Below are positions 20,956-32,986 of a DNA stretch of 64,000 nucleotides, piece by piece (the stretch's first letter is position 1; each line of letters opens with the position of its first letter). The notes under the pieces are model-generated. The model made no database searches and was not told the origin of the DNA. It saw only the letters and a program-made list of their open reading frames with translations. The DNA is taken from assembly GCF_009766105.1 (NCBI RefSeq), contig NZ_LMUH01000022.1, forward strand, positions 161,545 to 225,544. The letters are read 5' to 3'. The stretch comes from Granulicella sp. S156. GTDB lineage: Bacteria; Acidobacteriota; Terriglobia; Terriglobales; Acidobacteriaceae. The position numbers and the translations under genes are program-made.

Positions 20956-22545
20956 TTACTGATGCCCACTCCATACACCGTTCCACAAACGCACAATGCC
21001 GAGAGGGTTGTCATCCTGCAATGCCGGCTCAAGAGCCGACTGCGGTAGTCCCTGGTAGGCCACCGGACGCACGAAACGGAAGATGGCCTGGCTGCCCACA
21101 GAGGTCGATCGACCATCCGACGTCGCCGGATACGGGCCTCCATGCACCATCGCGTGGCACACCTCTACCCCAGTCGGAAAGCCGTTGAAGATAACCCGAC
21201 CGACCTTCGTCTCAAGTACTCGCAATAGCTCGCTGTGCTCTCGAAGGTCCTGCTCGGTGCCAAGAATCGTGGCTGTGAGATGCCCCTCCAGCCCCCGCAC
21301 AGCCTGTAACATCTCATCTTCGCCGCTGTAATTCACCAAAAGCATAGTCGGACCGAAGATCTCTTCAGCCGAAGCCGGATCAGCAAGAAACTCACTGCCC
21401 GTTGTCTCCAACAACACCGTCTGTGCGGAGAATCCCTCTCCCGCCGCTGCGCCTGCCGCCGTTCGTTGCTGCCCACGCTGGACCTGAGCCTTTTCATAAG
21501 CAGAAGCGATCCCAGAGGTAAGCAGAGAGAACGACGGTCCACTCTGCGTCACGCTTCGCAGCCGTTCCACGAAAGCTTTGCTGTGCGACGCCAGCGCAAA
21601 CACGATGCCGGGTTTCGTGCAGAACTGTCCTCCGCCCAGCGTGAACGAGGCATGCAATCCCGTTGCTAGTTCTTCACCACGCTCTGCGAGGGCACCCGGC
21701 AATATAAAGACAGGATTCGTACTGCCCATCTCCGCATAGACCGGGATCGGATCATGACGCTTCGCCGCAAGATCCATCAAAGAACGTCCGCCCCGAAACG
21801 AACCGGTGAAACCCACAGCACGAATGCCCGGATGCTGCACGAGAGCCGCACCGACTTCGTATCCGCTATCGAACAACAGAGAGAAGTATCCTGCGGGAAG
21901 ACCGCTCGCCTGCACCGCTTCCGTAATAATGCGGCCAACGATTTCACTTGTACCCGGATGTGCGGGATGCGCCTTGACAATCACCGGATTGCCGGCAGCC
22001 AGCGCGGACGCTGTATCGCCACCTGCCACAGAAAACGCCAGCGGAAAATTGCTTGCACCGAAGACAGCAACCGGCCCCAGCGGACGCAGCATCGACCGGA
22101 CATCGGGTTTTGGCGGTGTGCGTGTCGCATCTGCCGTATCGATCCGGGCCATCACCCAGGAACCCTCTTCCACCACACTGGCAAAGAGGCGCAACTGCCC
22201 ACTGGTGCGCGCTACCTCACCCGTAAGGCGAGGTAGCGGCAACGCTGTCTCCAGGTGTGCTCGTTCAATCAACTCCGCCGCAGCAGCGTCGATGCCGTCT
22301 GCGATGCTCCGCAGGAGAAGCCCGCGTTCTTTGCCAGAGGCCGCGGCCAAAGCAACAAATGCTTCCGACGCTGCTGCGACAGCTTGATCTACCTCGTTGC
22401 CAGTCGCCGAGAAAAACGCAGGTTGCAACTCGCGGCCATCGCCGGGATGATAGCCGTAAAACTTCGAGCTGCCCTCTGCGGCAACCTGGCCTGCAATCAA
22501 CGAACGTCCGACGAGCTCATGCTTGGCTGGAGTAGGGTTGCTCAT
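20956..22545 (-). CDS. Alpha-ketoglutarate semialdehyde dehydrogenase
   Basis: A 529-residue aldehyde dehydrogenase. It has the fold's GPVAVFGASNFPLAFSVAGG nucleotide region, catalytic E272 in YAEMGSTNPVFILPG and catalytic C309 in GGGQFCTKPG. The FGASNFPLAF and MGSTNP variants are those of the NADP-preferring alpha-KGSA branch. It oxidises alpha-ketoglutarate semialdehyde to alpha-ketoglutarate, the last step of hydroxyproline breakdown and also of some pentose and glucarate routes. It is the last gene of the operon, 3 bases after the Pyr4H2C deaminase, which decides for the hydroxyproline role. The protein is cytoplasmic. Confidence 0.88.
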   Translation of the reverse strand: MSNPTPAKHELVGRSLIAGQVAAEGSSKFYGYHPGDGRELQPAFFSATGNEVDQAVAAASEAFVALAAASGKERGLLLRSIADGIDAAAAELIERAHLETALPLPRLTGEVARTSGQLRLFASVVEEGSWVMARIDTADATRTPPKPDVRSMLRPLGPVAVFGASNFPLAFSVAGGDTASALAAGNPVIVKAHPAHPGTSEIVGRIITEAVQASGLPAGYFSLLFDSGYEVGAALVQHPGIRAVGFTGSFRGGRSLMDLAAKRHDPIPVYAEMGSTNPVFILPGALAERGEELATGLHASFTLGGGQFCTKPGIVFALASHSKAFVERLRSVTQSGPSFSLLTSGIASAYEKAQVQRGQQRTAAGAAAGEGFSAQTVLLETTGSEFLADPASAEEIFGPTMLLVNYSGEDEMLQAVRGLEGHLTATILGTEQDLREHSELLRVLETKVGRVIFNGFPTGVEVCHAMVHGGPYPATSDGRSTSVGSQAIFRFVRPVAYQGLPQSALEPALQDDNPLGIVRLWNGVWSGHQ

Positions 22546-29391: not shown

Positions 29392-29420
29392 GACACCCCC
29401 ATGAAAATCATGGGGGTGTC
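29392..29420 (+). terminator. Strong hairpin, probable terminator of the aminotransferase gene
   Basis: GACACCCCCATGA (29392-29404) and its exact complement (29408-29420) form a 13-bp stem with a 3-nt AAA loop, 24 bases after the stop. The following GTGTTTGT is only weakly U-rich. The rest of the gap to 29576 holds a second hairpin, GTTGGCTTT-AGG-AAAGCCGAC at 29532-29552, just before the leader element. Confidence 0.65.
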
Positions 29421-29575
29421 GTGTTTGTAGGATCGGGTGCGAATGACATAAATCTGCCGCCCAAGCCGATTCCCCGTTCGATCCCCAGATTCTGCCGATT
29501 ACCCCTTGATTGATCCCTTTCGCTGATATATGTTGGCTTTAGGAAAGCCGACCATTTTAGTCTTCATTCAAGGTT

Positions 29576-29635
29576 GAGCTGCTGCGGAGTCTTTTGGCGA
29601 AGCGCCGCAGCAGTCTCGGAGATCGATGACGAAGG
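29576..29635 (+). promoter_or_regulatory. Structured leader element, copy 1 (upstream of the S4 paralogue)
   Basis: A 9-bp stem (CTGCTGCGG 29579-29587 with CCGCAGCAG 29605-29613) carries a 17-nt loop containing GTCTTTTGGCGAAGCG (29589-29604). Four bases later GGAGATCGATGACGAAGG (29618-29635) follows. The 16-nt loop is identical in copy 2 at 30342-30357 while the stem sequence is wholly different but still paired. CUUUUG in the loop can pair with CGAAGG in the tail, a possible pseudoknot. The element lies 58-117 bases before the S4 ATG. It matches no riboswitch class I know. GGAG-ATCG-ATG could also start a small leader peptide whose stop overlaps the S4 start. Confidence 0.6.
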
Positions 29636-29692
29636 CTTGCAGCTTGCCGTTGAGGGCGGCGTTGCAGGCCAATCCACAAGGGAGACGGCGGG

Positions 29693-30313
29693 ATGAGTGA
29701 ACGAAAGAAGTGGAAGATCCAGCGCGCGCTGGGTCTGGAGTTGCCGGGTCTGGGAAAGCCGGGCGCGCTCGAAAAGAGAAATTATCCACCGGGACAGCAT
29801 GGCAGGCTGCGCAGGAAAACTACGCAGTTCGGCACCCAGCTCCGCGAAAAGCAGAAGCTGCTCTTCCACTATGGGCTGCGTGAGGAGCAGTTGCAGCGTT
29901 TCGTGCGCAAGGCTCGCAGCCTGAATGCCTCCGACTGGATGGAGAGCCTTATCGGGCTGCTGGAGCGCAGGCTCGACAACATCGTCTTCCGGCTGGGCTT
30001 CGCGCGCAGCGTGGCAGCGGCGCGCCAACTCGTCTCGCATGGACACATCATGGTGAATGGGCGGCGGGAGACGATTGGCTCCATGGTGCTGCGCCCCGGC
30101 GAAGTCATCTGGCTGACAGAGCGTGCCAGCCAGATGGGGCCTGTGCAGGAGGCTCTCCAGTCGCCGCGGCTTCCCTTGCCTTCTTATCTTCAGCGCCAGA
30201 ATCCGAGCACGCCGGACCGCGGAATCCTGTTGTTTATTCCCGGCTCCGGACATGTGCCGTTCGAGTTCAACAAGATACAGGTCGCGGAGTATTACGCAAA
30301 GCGCGGCGTTTGA
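29693..30313 (+). CDS. rpsD: Ribosomal protein S4 paralogue without zinc-ribbon cysteines
   Basis: A 206-residue S4 protein (uS4): LLFHYGLREEQLQRFVRKA, LERRLDNIVFRLGFARSVAAARQLVSHGHIMVNGRR is the S4 RNA-binding domain, and the C-terminus FEFNKIQVAEYYAKRGV is typical. There are no cysteines at all, so this is the C-minus form; the N-terminus MSERKKWKIQRALGLELPG lacks the CxxC pairs of zinc-binding S4. It is not in the usual S13-S11-S4-RpoA cluster, which suggests a second, conditionally used copy. Sequence between the S4 domain and C-terminus (ASQMGPVQEALQSPRLPLPS) is diverged. The GGGAGACGGCGGG before ATG 29693 is a fair ribosome-binding site. Neighbouring metal-uptake genes suggest use under zinc shortage. 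Confidence 0.88.
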   Translation: MSERKKWKIQRALGLELPGLGKPGALEKRNYPPGQHGRLRRKTTQFGTQLREKQKLLFHYGLREEQLQRFVRKARSLNASDWMESLIGLLERRLDNIVFRLGFARSVAAARQLVSHGHIMVNGRRETIGSMVLRPGEVIWLTERASQMGPVQEALQSPRLPLPSYLQRQNPSTPDRGILLFIPGSGHVPFEFNKIQVAEYYAKRGV

Positions 30314-30329
30314 TTTACCGCTAAGGGCG

Positions 30330-30386
30330 TTCCCTCAGCTGGTCTTTTGGCGAAGCGGCTGAGGGAATGGAGATCGATAACCAAGG
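30330..30386 (+). promoter_or_regulatory. Structured leader element, copy 2 (upstream of the TonB receptor)
   Basis: A 10-bp stem (TTCCCTCAGC 30330-30339 with GCTGAGGGAA 30358-30367) carries an 18-nt loop containing the same GTCTTTTGGCGAAGCG (30342-30357) as copy 1. One base later GGAGATCGATAACCAAGG (30369-30386) matches the copy 1 tail at 16 of 18 bases. UUUUGG in the loop can pair with CCAAGG in the tail. It lies 50-106 bases before the receptor ATG at 30436. No B12 box, Zur-like palindrome or other known motif was seen. In copy 2 the tail ATG is ATA, so a leader peptide is less likely here. Confidence 0.6.
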
Positions 30387-30435
30387 TGGTTGATTCATAG
30401 CAAGAATCGTCGCCGCAACCTCGAAAGGTGAGGCT

Positions 30436-32712
30436 ATGCGAAAGACTTTATCAGCGCTTGTGCTGCTGACCTGCAGTTCCCTCTGGGCGCAAGACGCCGG
30501 CAAAGACGTCGCAGGACGTGTTCTTGATCGACAGGGCAATGGGTTGTCCCACGCGGAGGTTACGCTTCGCAACACGCTGACCGGCGTAGCGCAAAAGATG
30601 CTGACGACGGATGACGGCAGATATTCCTTTGCGGGGGTCTCGTCCGGCGAGTACATTCTCACCGCTACGGCGACGGGGCTGGCGCCCGATACGCACTCTG
30701 TTCAAGTGAGAGCAGGCGCTCCGGTAGAGAACCTGGATCTTGCCCTCTCGGTCGCTACGGTCGAGCAGAGCGTCACAGTGGTCTCGGCCTCGCGCGTGGA
30801 AGAGCTGCAGCAGGATTCCCCGTTGCCCATCGATGTGGTCACGAAGCAACGGATCGAACGCACCGGCTTTGAAAGCGTCGCCGACGTGCTGAGCGAGTTA
30901 CCGGGGGGCGTTACGCGGAACAATGCCTCGTTCTCCGGTTCGTCTCAGGAACAGATCGACGGCGTTGCTTCGCAGGATATTCTCGTGCTGCAGGATGGGT
31001 TGCCGGTTGTAGGCGCGCGTGGCATCAACAGCGGCATCATCGATCTCGGTCAGCAAAACGTCGGCCGCCTGGATCGCGTGGAAGTAGTGCGGGGAGCGGC
31101 GTCGTCCCTGTACGGAACCGACGCCATCGGGGGCGTGATCAATATGATCACGCACGAACCGGTACATCCCTTCGAAGGCGGCCTTCGTCTCTCAGGCGGC
31201 GACCTGGGCACCTTCGATGGAGACCTTGACCTTGGGACACAATGGAAGAACCTCACAGCGTTCACCGACCTCGAACTGCACCGAGTCAACTCCTACACGC
31301 TGATTCCAAATGATGAGAGCACCATCGGCGCGAACAATCAGCGCTATGACGGCTTCGTCAAGCTGCGATACAGCTTCAACCCGCGAGCTTCCATCGGCTA
31401 TACCGGCGATGCGTATCACGACACCTCCACCGGAAAGAACACGGACATCACAGGAGCAGCGGCATCCGGTTACGACTATGCCGTAAGTCATGACAGCACG
31501 CAGACTCATGCGCTGGCCGGAGACTTCCTTCCGACCTCGAGCACAACCGTGCAGGCGCGCCTCTATGAGGCTCGCTTCGACTCGAACTCTTACCAAAACC
31601 CGATCAATGCGGACAACAGCCACGGTGCGCAGTTTGATTACGGCAACCTGTACGAGCGGTATCACCGTGCCGATGCGACTGTATCGCAGCAGGTGGAATC
31701 GTGGCAGTTCCTGCAGGGCGGTGACGAGTGGGTACAGGACTCGTACCGTGGTCTGAACCGCATCGTCGGCAGCGACGATGGGCAACAGATCACGACGAAC
31801 GATGTCTGGCTGCAGGACCGCATTCAGCCGTGGAAGAAGCTGATCATCAACCTCGGCGGCCGTTACAACCACCACTCGCTCTATGGCAGCCACGTAGTTC
31901 CAAAGATCGGCCTAGTGTACAGGGTGAATGACCATTGGACCGTGCGCGGAGCTTATGGCAAAGGCTTCCGTTCGCCTTCTCTGGGTGAGCTGTATTATCT
32001 GCTGCTACATCCGGAGTACGGGTATCAGGTGATCGGCAATCCGACGCTGCAGCCAGAGCGGAGTGAGAGTTATTCCGTCGGCGCCGACTATCAGGTCAAT
32101 CGCTACAGTTTTGGAGCCACACTCTATCGCAATAATTTGAACCACCTTATCAACTACGTCTATGCGGGCTTTCCCACCAGTGAAGCCGACCTGGATGCCC
32201 TGCTGGCGCAGTATGGGATTCCTGCGTCCTTCGGCGCACAGCCATTTCTTGCCACGTATCTCTATACCAACGTCGATCAGGCCTACACCCAGGGCATCAA
32301 CCTGAAGGGCAGTGTGCTTCTCACCAGGAATCTGCGCGTCGATGGGTTCTATGCCTATCTCGATCCTTACGATGTCACCGACAAACAGACCTTGACCGAG
32401 CGCAGCCGTAATCAGGGATCCGTGCGGACTGAGTATGTCTCGAACCGGTTGGGAGTTGTCGCCAACATTCGCGGTAACTTCTTCGGACGCTATCTGATCA
32501 ATGCCACTACCGGAGAGCACGAACAGGCTTACGCTCTCTGGAACTTCTACGCCTCGAAGAATATTGTGCACGGACTTCAGGCCTATGGGGCAGTCGACAA
32601 TCTCGGCAATAGCCGCGACAGCCTTCTGGCACAGACACCTCCAACCTACGATCGCACCGACTACGGAAGAACCTTCCGCATCGGCATGCGGTATACCTTC
32701 CCGCACGAATAA
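30436..32712 (+). CDS. TonB-dependent receptor of the metal/cofactor type
   Basis: A 758-residue outer membrane receptor. The signal peptide is MRKTLSALVLLTCSSLWAQ. A CarboxypepD_reg domain follows (KDVAGRVLDRQGNGLSHAEV to GEYILTATATGLAPD). The plug domain is ESVADVLSELPGGVTRNN with DRVEVVRGAASSLYGTDAIG and GVINMITHEP. The barrel ends in the TonB box-type C-terminus FRIGMRYTFPHE, with the signature RGAYGKGFRSPSLGELYY. Unlike the two 1200-1300-residue receptors here, this has ordinary length and a BtuB/CirA-like plug, so it probably takes up a small ligand such as a metal chelate or corrinoid. AAGGTGAG precedes the ATG. It probably forms an operon with the genes downstream. Confidence 0.88.
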   Translation: MRKTLSALVLLTCSSLWAQDAGKDVAGRVLDRQGNGLSHAEVTLRNTLTGVAQKMLTTDDGRYSFAGVSSGEYILTATATGLAPDTHSVQVRAGAPVENLDLALSVATVEQSVTVVSASRVEELQQDSPLPIDVVTKQRIERTGFESVADVLSELPGGVTRNNASFSGSSQEQIDGVASQDILVLQDGLPVVGARGINSGIIDLGQQNVGRLDRVEVVRGAASSLYGTDAIGGVINMITHEPVHPFEGGLRLSGGDLGTFDGDLDLGTQWKNLTAFTDLELHRVNSYTLIPNDESTIGANNQRYDGFVKLRYSFNPRASIGYTGDAYHDTSTGKNTDITGAAASGYDYAVSHDSTQTHALAGDFLPTSSTTVQARLYEARFDSNSYQNPINADNSHGAQFDYGNLYERYHRADATVSQQVESWQFLQGGDEWVQDSYRGLNRIVGSDDGQQITTNDVWLQDRIQPWKKLIINLGGRYNHHSLYGSHVVPKIGLVYRVNDHWTVRGAYGKGFRSPSLGELYYLLLHPEYGYQVIGNPTLQPERSESYSVGADYQVNRYSFGATLYRNNLNHLINYVYAGFPTSEADLDALLAQYGIPASFGAQPFLATYLYTNVDQAYTQGINLKGSVLLTRNLRVDGFYAYLDPYDVTDKQTLTERSRNQGSVRTEYVSNRLGVVANIRGNFFGRYLINATTGEHEQAYALWNFYASKNIVHGLQAYGAVDNLGNSRDSLLAQTPPTYDRTDYGRTFRIGMRYTFPHE

Positions 32713-32740: not shown

Positions 32741-32986
32741 ATGGATGAGATCAATGTGACGTTAGCGGAGATGTCTGGCCTGGGGCGTGTCTGGCTGTGC
32801 GAATGCAACTCGATTCACCTCAGCATCGGGCCGGTCACAGTCACGTTGGCGCCGGAGGCGTTTCTCCAGACGGCCTCTATGGTTCGTTATGCAATGGAAC
32901 AACTAGCCGTGATCGTCGCAGCGAAAGAGGTTGCGGGTGATCCGATGCAGGGGTTCGAACCGCAGCACAGCCGTTTCACGAATTGA
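32741..32986 (+). CDS. Small protein of unknown function with CxC-N-x-IHL motif
   Basis: An 81-residue protein that begins at ATG 32741 with AAGGAGTCGTT upstream, 28 bases after the receptor stop. The frame extends back to 32501 in the receptor gene but that part is shadow. The centre is VWLCECNSIHLSIGPVTVTL followed by a helix-like APEAFLQTASMVRYAMEQLA. There is no signal peptide. CxC plus His could hold a metal ion. It looks somewhat like small DUF6686-type proteins found near TonB receptors in Bacteroidota, but I am not sure of that. A function is not assigned; its location suggests a metal-related role. Confidence 0.6.
   Translation: MDEINVTLAEMSGLGRVWLCECNSIHLSIGPVTVTLAPEAFLQTASMVRYAMEQLAVIVAAKEVAGDPMQGFEPQHSRFTN

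Follow-up and report, generated by a model that had tools for sequence, protein, structure and literature searches.

A conserved hairpin in the leaders of iron genes of Acidobacteriaceae, and a candidate antisense RNA encoded by other copies of the same motif

The window analysed here is a stretch of 64,000 nucleotides from Granulicella sp. S156 (contig NZ_LMUH01000022.1, positions 161,545 to 225,544). On its plus strand, a paralogue of rpsD, the gene for ribosomal protein S4 (29693-30313), is followed after 122 nt by the gene for a TonB-dependent receptor (30436-32712), in which a domain scan of the window's genes finds CarboxypepD_reg, plug and barrel. The S4 paralogue lacks the four cysteines of the genome's main S4; S4 in Thermus can hold an Fe-S cluster. 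Behind the TonB gene comes the gene for a small protein (about 32741-32986, its start placed by eye), and beyond this lie CbiX and FTR1.

Each of the first two genes is preceded by a copy of an unusual hairpin. In the S4 leader, copy 1 (29579-29613) has arms at 29579-29587 and 29605-29613 that enclose the loop GTCTTTTGGCGAAGCG (29589-29604), and is followed by a conserved tail, GGAGATCGATGACGAAGG (29618-29635). A second, sequence-variable hairpin comes next (29634-29670; placed from the fold of L039, which has the same sequence, and from group z-scores over mononucleotide shuffles), and then the ribosome-binding site AAGGGAGAC (29678-29686), which is complementary to GUCUUUU of the loop. Copy 2 (30330-30367) fills part of the gap between the two genes. 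Its arms lie at 30330-30339 and 30358-30367, the identical loop at 30342-30357, and its tail, GGAGATCGATAACCAAGG, at 30369-30386; the TonB ribosome-binding site, GAAAGGT (30423-30429), is complementary to GUCUUU of the loop. One further match to GTCTTTTGGCGAAGCG in the window, at 21758, has three mismatches, where 0.77 matches are expected by chance. The original prediction, made from the sequence of this locus, had described identical loops, stems that differ while still pairing, and a tail after each, all of which are present as described; the tails end 57 and 49 nt before the ATGs of the S4 (29693) and TonB (30436) genes.

The motif is not private to this genome. Loop and tail, taken together as a pattern, occur in 14 of 250 genomes of the family and in 8 of 79 genera, counts that include two probable chance matches inside coding sequence (L032 and L041, omitted from the first set). 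The reversed pattern matched nothing in all 250 family genomes. A covariance model, R1, trained with copy 1 in its set and copy 2 out, recovers both here (E = 5.3e-16 and 1.8e-8, respectively), and reaches 24 of the 250 genomes at E <= 0.01, some of them weakly, and 19 at E <= 2e-4. A second model, R2, applied to evenly drawn rather than exhaustive samples, finds the element in 46 of the 298 genomes from the order and 7 of the 297 from the phylum, all of them in the window's own family. Recurrence in other genomes had been named at the outset as a check, and these numbers show it.

When named genomes were scanned with a pattern, 76 stretches matched, mostly from Granulicella, Edaphobacter, Silvibacterium, Terriglobus and unnamed Acidobacteriaceae or Acidobacteriales. 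Eighteen stretches came from outside the Acidobacteria; only one of these passed R1 at E <= 0.01 (L131, 4e-4), and it is probably a chance match. The richest genome holds about 20 copies (G302, with 18 R2 matches and 20 rows in the class table), and G130 has 14 matches. One further weak copy stands in front of a TonB gene (L359). The sequences used below were collected by searches, with patterns or trained models, that themselves rest on the conserved loop and tail, and went from 157 matches to 150 aligned and 147 distinct elements; L302-L305 and some weak R2 matches were left out. No known leader family accounts for them, as had been supposed: Rfam release 15 gives no match at gathering threshold over the whole window, and none over the element at eight loci with E up to 10. 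The one Rfam match near the elements, mir-883 (L039, 1747-1824, E 3.9), lies outside the element itself.

The stem covaries strongly. Alignment A2, made with MAFFT without structure and given a structure drawn by the author from the same rows, holds 23 two-sided changes against 10.2 in shuffles, with none of 500 shuffles as high. The larger, model-fitted A6 holds 427, of which 425 fall in nine stem pairs, against 135 (again 0 of 500 shuffles). The stems are compensatory, as had first been seen between the two copies. Matters stand differently with the H-type pseudoknot that had been suggested between loop and tail. Such a pairing is compatible with the sequences (94.6% of cells pair, against 13-59% when the columns are slid by one to three), yet no measure of covariation rises above shuffles (119 to 330 of 500 reach the value). 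These counts cover pairing of the UUGGCG/CGACAA type; one of the pairings first proposed was CUUUUG with CGAAGG. The loop UUGGCG and tail CGACAA pseudoknot was therefore set aside as compatible and unsupported, a further A-U pair being broken in several tails; a pairing of loop GUCUU with tail GAGAU was also dropped, as by eye it is lost where the tail varies.

What genes stand behind the element? Clustering of the longest ORF near each of the 150 aligned elements gives 54 TonB receptors, 27 S4 paralogues, 17 PepSY-TM proteins, ECF sigma factors in clusters of 7 and 2, 5 outer-membrane-like proteins and 2 flavodoxins; 27 ORFs are single, and 9 elements have none. Outside the window these names were read by eye from the sequences, while genes inside it were profile-scanned. 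Among the 147 distinct elements, 35 carry the label "other". Behind some of these there is in fact an S4, TonB, Sel1 or multicopper-oxidase gene, in a different frame or at a greater distance (L270:2254, L288:4060, L114:623, L254, L286:9971), and some of the rest have no plus-strand gene behind them. Proteins similar to the window's small one (32741-32986) in L249 and L258 have, by eye, the element directly in front of their genes. An unusual place is found in L092 (8550-8610) and L093 (4345-4405), where a copy lies between a CarboxypepD/TonB-like gene, which it follows directly, and a GH43-like gene, both identified by eye.

The original prediction took these to be leader elements of a metal-starvation set of genes, which agrees with the gene list. 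Among the metals it named were zinc, cobalt, nickel and iron. TonB receptors, FecI-like sigma factors, PepSY-TM proteins, flavodoxin and the palindrome described next make iron, and not zinc, cobalt or nickel, the most likely metal, and a zinc reading of the S4 paralogue was dropped, since the rest of the set are iron genes. That the hairpins are a regulatory element of iron genes is very probable.

A palindrome of the form GAC-N7-GTC lies within 130 nt upstream of 104 of the 147 elements. Other spacings (4-6 and 8-11) are found at only 1 to 5 of 147, and 4.5% of random stretches have the palindrome. The family consensus, TTGATATAGGACTAAATTAGTCGTATTTT, reads as a -35 box, a 17-nt spacer that holds the palindrome, and a -10 box. 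Compared with the E. coli IscR type 1 consensus, it has the sequence of an IscR-type operator, GAC(T)N5(A)GTC, at a promoter, and is best called a putative operator. In the window it stands at 29550-29562, within a promoter-like region (29533-29563) whose -35 and -10 look poor by eye; it is the sole GACN7GTC on the plus strand of 29401-30400, and 16 nt separate it from the first arm of copy 1. The single Rrf2-family match in this genome has three IscR-like cysteines, spaced CX6CX5C, and lies next to a frame that by eye encodes a cysteine desulfurase.

The palindrome accompanies the element before 17 of 17 PepSY genes, 7 of 7 sigma genes, 24 of 26 S4 genes and 32 of 53 TonB genes. Several of the TonB copies that lack it stand directly behind S4, as their upstream sequences show. 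The window's is one of them, with no palindrome between S4 and copy 2. This argues that the element works on RNA. Nine S4 paralogues without an element in front keep the palindrome (L317-L324, L326). Three of these, L320, L321 and L322, whose leaders also have IscR-type palindromes, share by eye a different leader sequence, CTCTTTCC...GGAAGGAG, which could hide the ribosome-binding site directly.

The ribosome-binding sites behind the element are themselves peculiar. After correction for Shine-Dalgarno strength, their complementarity to the loop leaves a residual of -1.36 kcal/mol (p = 3e-6; reversed-loop control, p = 0.08), in a comparison of 90 of 102 called starts, those outside the "other" label, with 237 control genes, where start codons were called by rule and some are wrong. 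GAAAGG occurs in 47 of 90 element genes against 16 of 237 controls. Its frequency depends on class, being 39/47 for TonB, 4/5 for sigma and 0/25 for S4. AAGG is followed by C or T in 44/63 against 34/94, and GGAG by AC in 12/31 against 9/135. Among TonB genes of two genomes, GAAAGG is found in five of six with the element and in none of 21 without it; from 130 matches, 30 loci were taken for this count and a start could be called at 27 of them, and the model search led to the re-assignment of L333 and L360.

Which strand carries the RNA? Pooled over all copies, stem mismatches show no G·U excess (A·C 121, G·U 95; isolated mismatches, A·C 88, G·U 59), and over 25 clusters a slight one at most (G·U 40, A·C 28). 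This was first counted against RNA. By gene class, however, the counts part company: S4 copies have 29 G·U and 13 A·C, whereas "other" copies with a class A tail have 1 G·U and 29 A·C. In class A, GGCTGACGA continues the tail, and at 24-30 nt beyond the element (n = 38) there is a box that on the minus strand resembles TATACT, TATAGT or TATAAT. The elements were therefore classed by this minus-strand -10 hexamer alone, independently of the stem. Of 147, 140 could be parsed and 7 could not, giving 40 of class A (at most one mismatch to TATAAT), 36 intermediate and 64 of class B (at least three mismatches). On the plus strand, class A stems have 53 A·C, 4 G·U and 1 other mismatch; the intermediate group has 34, 18 and 9; class B has 26 A·C, 57 G·U and 40 other. 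The difference between A and B has p = 3.7e-14 (Fisher test).

The A·C bias of class A means that its arms make a tight helix in minus-strand RNA, so that an RNA-like helix is found on the opposite strand at some loci. Class B, which includes both window copies and most S4 leaders, has its helix as gene-strand RNA. Folding energies express the same signal as the wobbles and are not second evidence: RNAalifold gives class A -24.2 kcal/mol on the minus and -3.0 on the plus strand, and class B 0.0 on both, while single-sequence minimum free energies are lower on the minus strand in 39 of 40 class A copies and on the plus strand in 50 of 64 class B copies. Where the tail is GGCTGACGA-like, a minus-strand TATAAT within one mismatch is found at 6/7 sigma, 8/11 PepSY, 15/22 "other" and 8/21 TonB copies; the plus strand of the same stretch gives 2/7, 2/11, 3/22 and 2/21. 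S4 leaders have such a minus-strand hexamer in 0 of 26. The conserved block of the class A minus-strand RNA begins about where transcription driven by the box would start. Eight class A loci (L260, L261, L262, L270, L275, L282, L283 and L285) have no plus-strand gene within 300 nt, barring ORFs antisense to a called gene.

The main weakness of this strand evidence is that the class A copies are close kin, which leaves few independent events. At 80% identity they form 26 clusters, with A·C 47 to G·U 4; at 70%, only 4 clusters, with about 5.2 A·C to 0.2 G·U when each cluster counts once. No conserved -35 was found at class A copies. A simple scan of two standalone loci gave no sigma70-type promoter or terminator, with a loop limit of 8 that would miss this hairpin. 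T makes up 0.50 of the first six nucleotides after the class A hairpin and 0.38 after that of class B; this modest U-richness is absent from the present genome's class A copy and from sigma copies. Many class A copies also precede iron genes with a plus-strand palindrome, so a plus-strand function remains for them.

Several smaller observations belong here. In G302, five sigma-factor genes carry the element; the minus-strand -10 is within one mismatch in four, and has two in the fifth. The class A copies at L275:3369-3466 and L283:4918-5015 lie about 40 nt past the stop of a gene that by eye encodes aconitase, in the same direction, with an S4 paralogue on the other side. A plus-strand promoter, GGCTGACGA...TATAG, was considered and set aside, its box being closer to TATAAT on the minus strand. 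Terminator-like hairpins, tried as a wobble control, gave no information, with 25 G·U to 22 A·C over 125 hairpins.

These patterns suggest, with a probability of about 0.62, that class B leaders are the targets of a small antisense RNA made from class A loci. We infer that such an RNA is transcribed and acts in trans. In this genome its source would be the opposite strand of G000:C23:431020-431079, the only clear class A copy here. This copy lies on another contig, before another TonB gene, has the minus-strand box TATGAT and favours the minus strand by 8.2 kcal/mol. The start of the RNA would lie near UCGCCAGCC, for which most relatives have UCGUCAGCC; it would carry GGGUUGUCGAUCUC, largely complementary to the leader tail, and would present in its hairpin loop GCUUCGCCAAAAAGAC, the complement of the target loop with one extra A. 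The window's elements, with their 16-nt loop, 9-10 bp stem and conserved tail, would be its target sites in mRNA leaders, met by loop-loop and tail pairing. Such pairing may tune how well iron-starvation mRNAs with the IscR-type palindrome in their promoters are translated, or how stable they are. Repression and activation are both possible, since the Shine-Dalgarno sequence is another complement of the leader loop: pairing might free that sequence by drawing the loop away, or might mark the mRNA for decay. Together with an Fe-S-sensing repressor, it could set a threshold on iron-uptake mRNAs.

Among 43 genomes tabulated, 30 have several copies and 13 have one. A copy stabler on the minus strand (threshold 2 kcal/mol) occurs in 27 of the multi-copy genomes, and one stabler on the plus strand in 25; a minus-stabler copy is present in 8 of the 13 single-copy genomes. 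This leaves 3 of 30 and 5 of 13 without a copy 2 kcal/mol stabler on the minus strand. Here, both window copies have three mismatches to the -10 box and favour the gene strand, by 1.8 kcal/mol (S4, below the threshold) and 9.1 kcal/mol (TonB); for a PepSY copy on contig 4, intermediate by its box (two mismatches), the preference for the gene strand is 7.1. The tail has a variable base, A or G, which agrees between class A and class B copies that share a genome (7/12 against 8/62, p = 0.0016, a value that ignores relatedness and uses a slightly different class rule). Pairing of this genome's predicted antisense RNA with leaders is computed at -113 (S4), -90 (TonB) and -88 (PepSY) kcal/mol, where mononucleotide shuffles give -67, -60 and -63 (sd 5-6), a strength that is due in part to all these sequences belonging to one motif family. 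A search of this genome for a small RNA that would act through a seed alone, by complement to the loop with two mismatches, gave 63 matches against 60 for the reversed control, and so singled out no such gene.

The original prediction was of a cis-acting RNA. The leader RNA element stands; the strand evidence points to an antisense-RNA target over a ligand-binding riboswitch. In a riboswitch, hairpin and tail would bind a ligand (Fe2+, heme, one related to Fe-S, or another), and the GUCUUUU of the loop would be used to expose or hide the Shine-Dalgarno sequence. The leaders do hold a conserved structured element of the kind that this demands, with a very conserved loop and tail, a strongly covarying stem, ribosome-binding sites complementary to the loop beyond Shine-Dalgarno strength, and GAAAGG enriched among element genes, including the TonB genes of the two genomes. 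A riboswitch is nevertheless unlikely, as it explains neither the -10 box on the opposite strand, nor the A·C pattern of class A, nor elements without a plus-strand gene, and the pseudoknot pairs do not covary.

Might a protein bind the hairpin instead? An iron-responsive RNA-binding protein (for example, apo-aconitase), or the S4 paralogue itself, could hold an IRE-like leader hairpin. The loop of the IRE is CAGUGN, and that found here, GTCTTTTGGCGAAGC, is not of this type. The element nevertheless resembles the eukaryotic IRE and the IRE-like hairpins of bacterial aconitase in its variable stem, fixed loop and place in the UTRs of iron genes (PMC3912134, where CAGUG is among the loops listed); it differs from the IRE in its loop sequence and its conserved tail. 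In L275 and L283 copies adjoin aconitase (by eye); in L096 and L266 the distance to it is at most a few kb. The S4 paralogue goes with the element, being present in 14 of the 19 genomes that have an element at E <= 2e-4 and in 7 of the other 231. Each is also found alone, the element without the paralogue (E 1e-60) in G017, G019, G039, G088 and the incomplete G160, and the paralogue without a detected element in G031, G101, G128, G140 and G180, so that S4 was rejected on phyletic grounds as an obligatory trans factor. With the strand evidence also against it, protein binding is improbable. Least probable is a DNA-level inverted repeat (an operator, cruciform or mobile element end), which the lack of a pooled G·U excess would fit. 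Against it, the wobbles show a strong strand bias, of opposite sense in the two classes, once the copies are split by an independent criterion; the arms vary yet stay symmetric, unlike those of a protein operator; and the operator-like palindrome is a separate upstream sequence.

Control by an antisense RNA has well-known parallels. CopA/CopT, RNAI/RNAII and FinP/traJ are loop-loop antisense RNA systems, and YUNR is a U-turn motif. As in these systems, complementary hairpin loops and tails would be carried here by the antisense RNA and the leader; the leader loop contains UUGG, which fits the YUNR U-turn of such systems, and control would be expected, as in the CopA/CopT kind, at the level of translation. 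Unlike that kind, the system proposed here has several dispersed chromosomal copies per genome, trans targets that share loop and tail and not stems, and targets that form an iron-starvation set. An RNA layer on iron genes is also found in RNA-alpha of the Vibrio anguillarum iron plasmid and in RyhB-type sRNAs; here, the targets are uptake genes plus a ribosomal-protein paralogue under one shared leader motif. IscR and Iron-Rhodo-box regulons have a palindrome at the -35/-10 of iron-uptake genes (PMC4618611, PMC11475020), as with the putative operator here; the RNA element is what is added. The part of the literature searched, on subjects other than antisense RNA in Acidobacteria, gave no description of the motif, and the antisense layer of iron control proposed here is apparently undescribed so far.

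A fuller version may be offered only tentatively, and as a whole it is doubtful. Here, one motif family would be an sRNA gene on one strand and a target leader on the other; a chromosomal antisense RNA would kiss a loop that masks the Shine-Dalgarno sequence, and thereby activate an iron-starvation regulon that includes a Cys-free S4; and the set of targets would grow as further genes gained copies of the antisense locus.

If the reading is correct, strand-specific counting of wobbles can separate a target leader from its antisense gene, and the family would be a clean system in which to follow the growth of sRNA-target networks by duplication. It would also link iron starvation to the replacement of ribosomal protein S4. 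It would mean, too, that these soil bacteria control iron uptake by a multi-copy antisense-RNA network laid over an Fe-S-sensing repressor.
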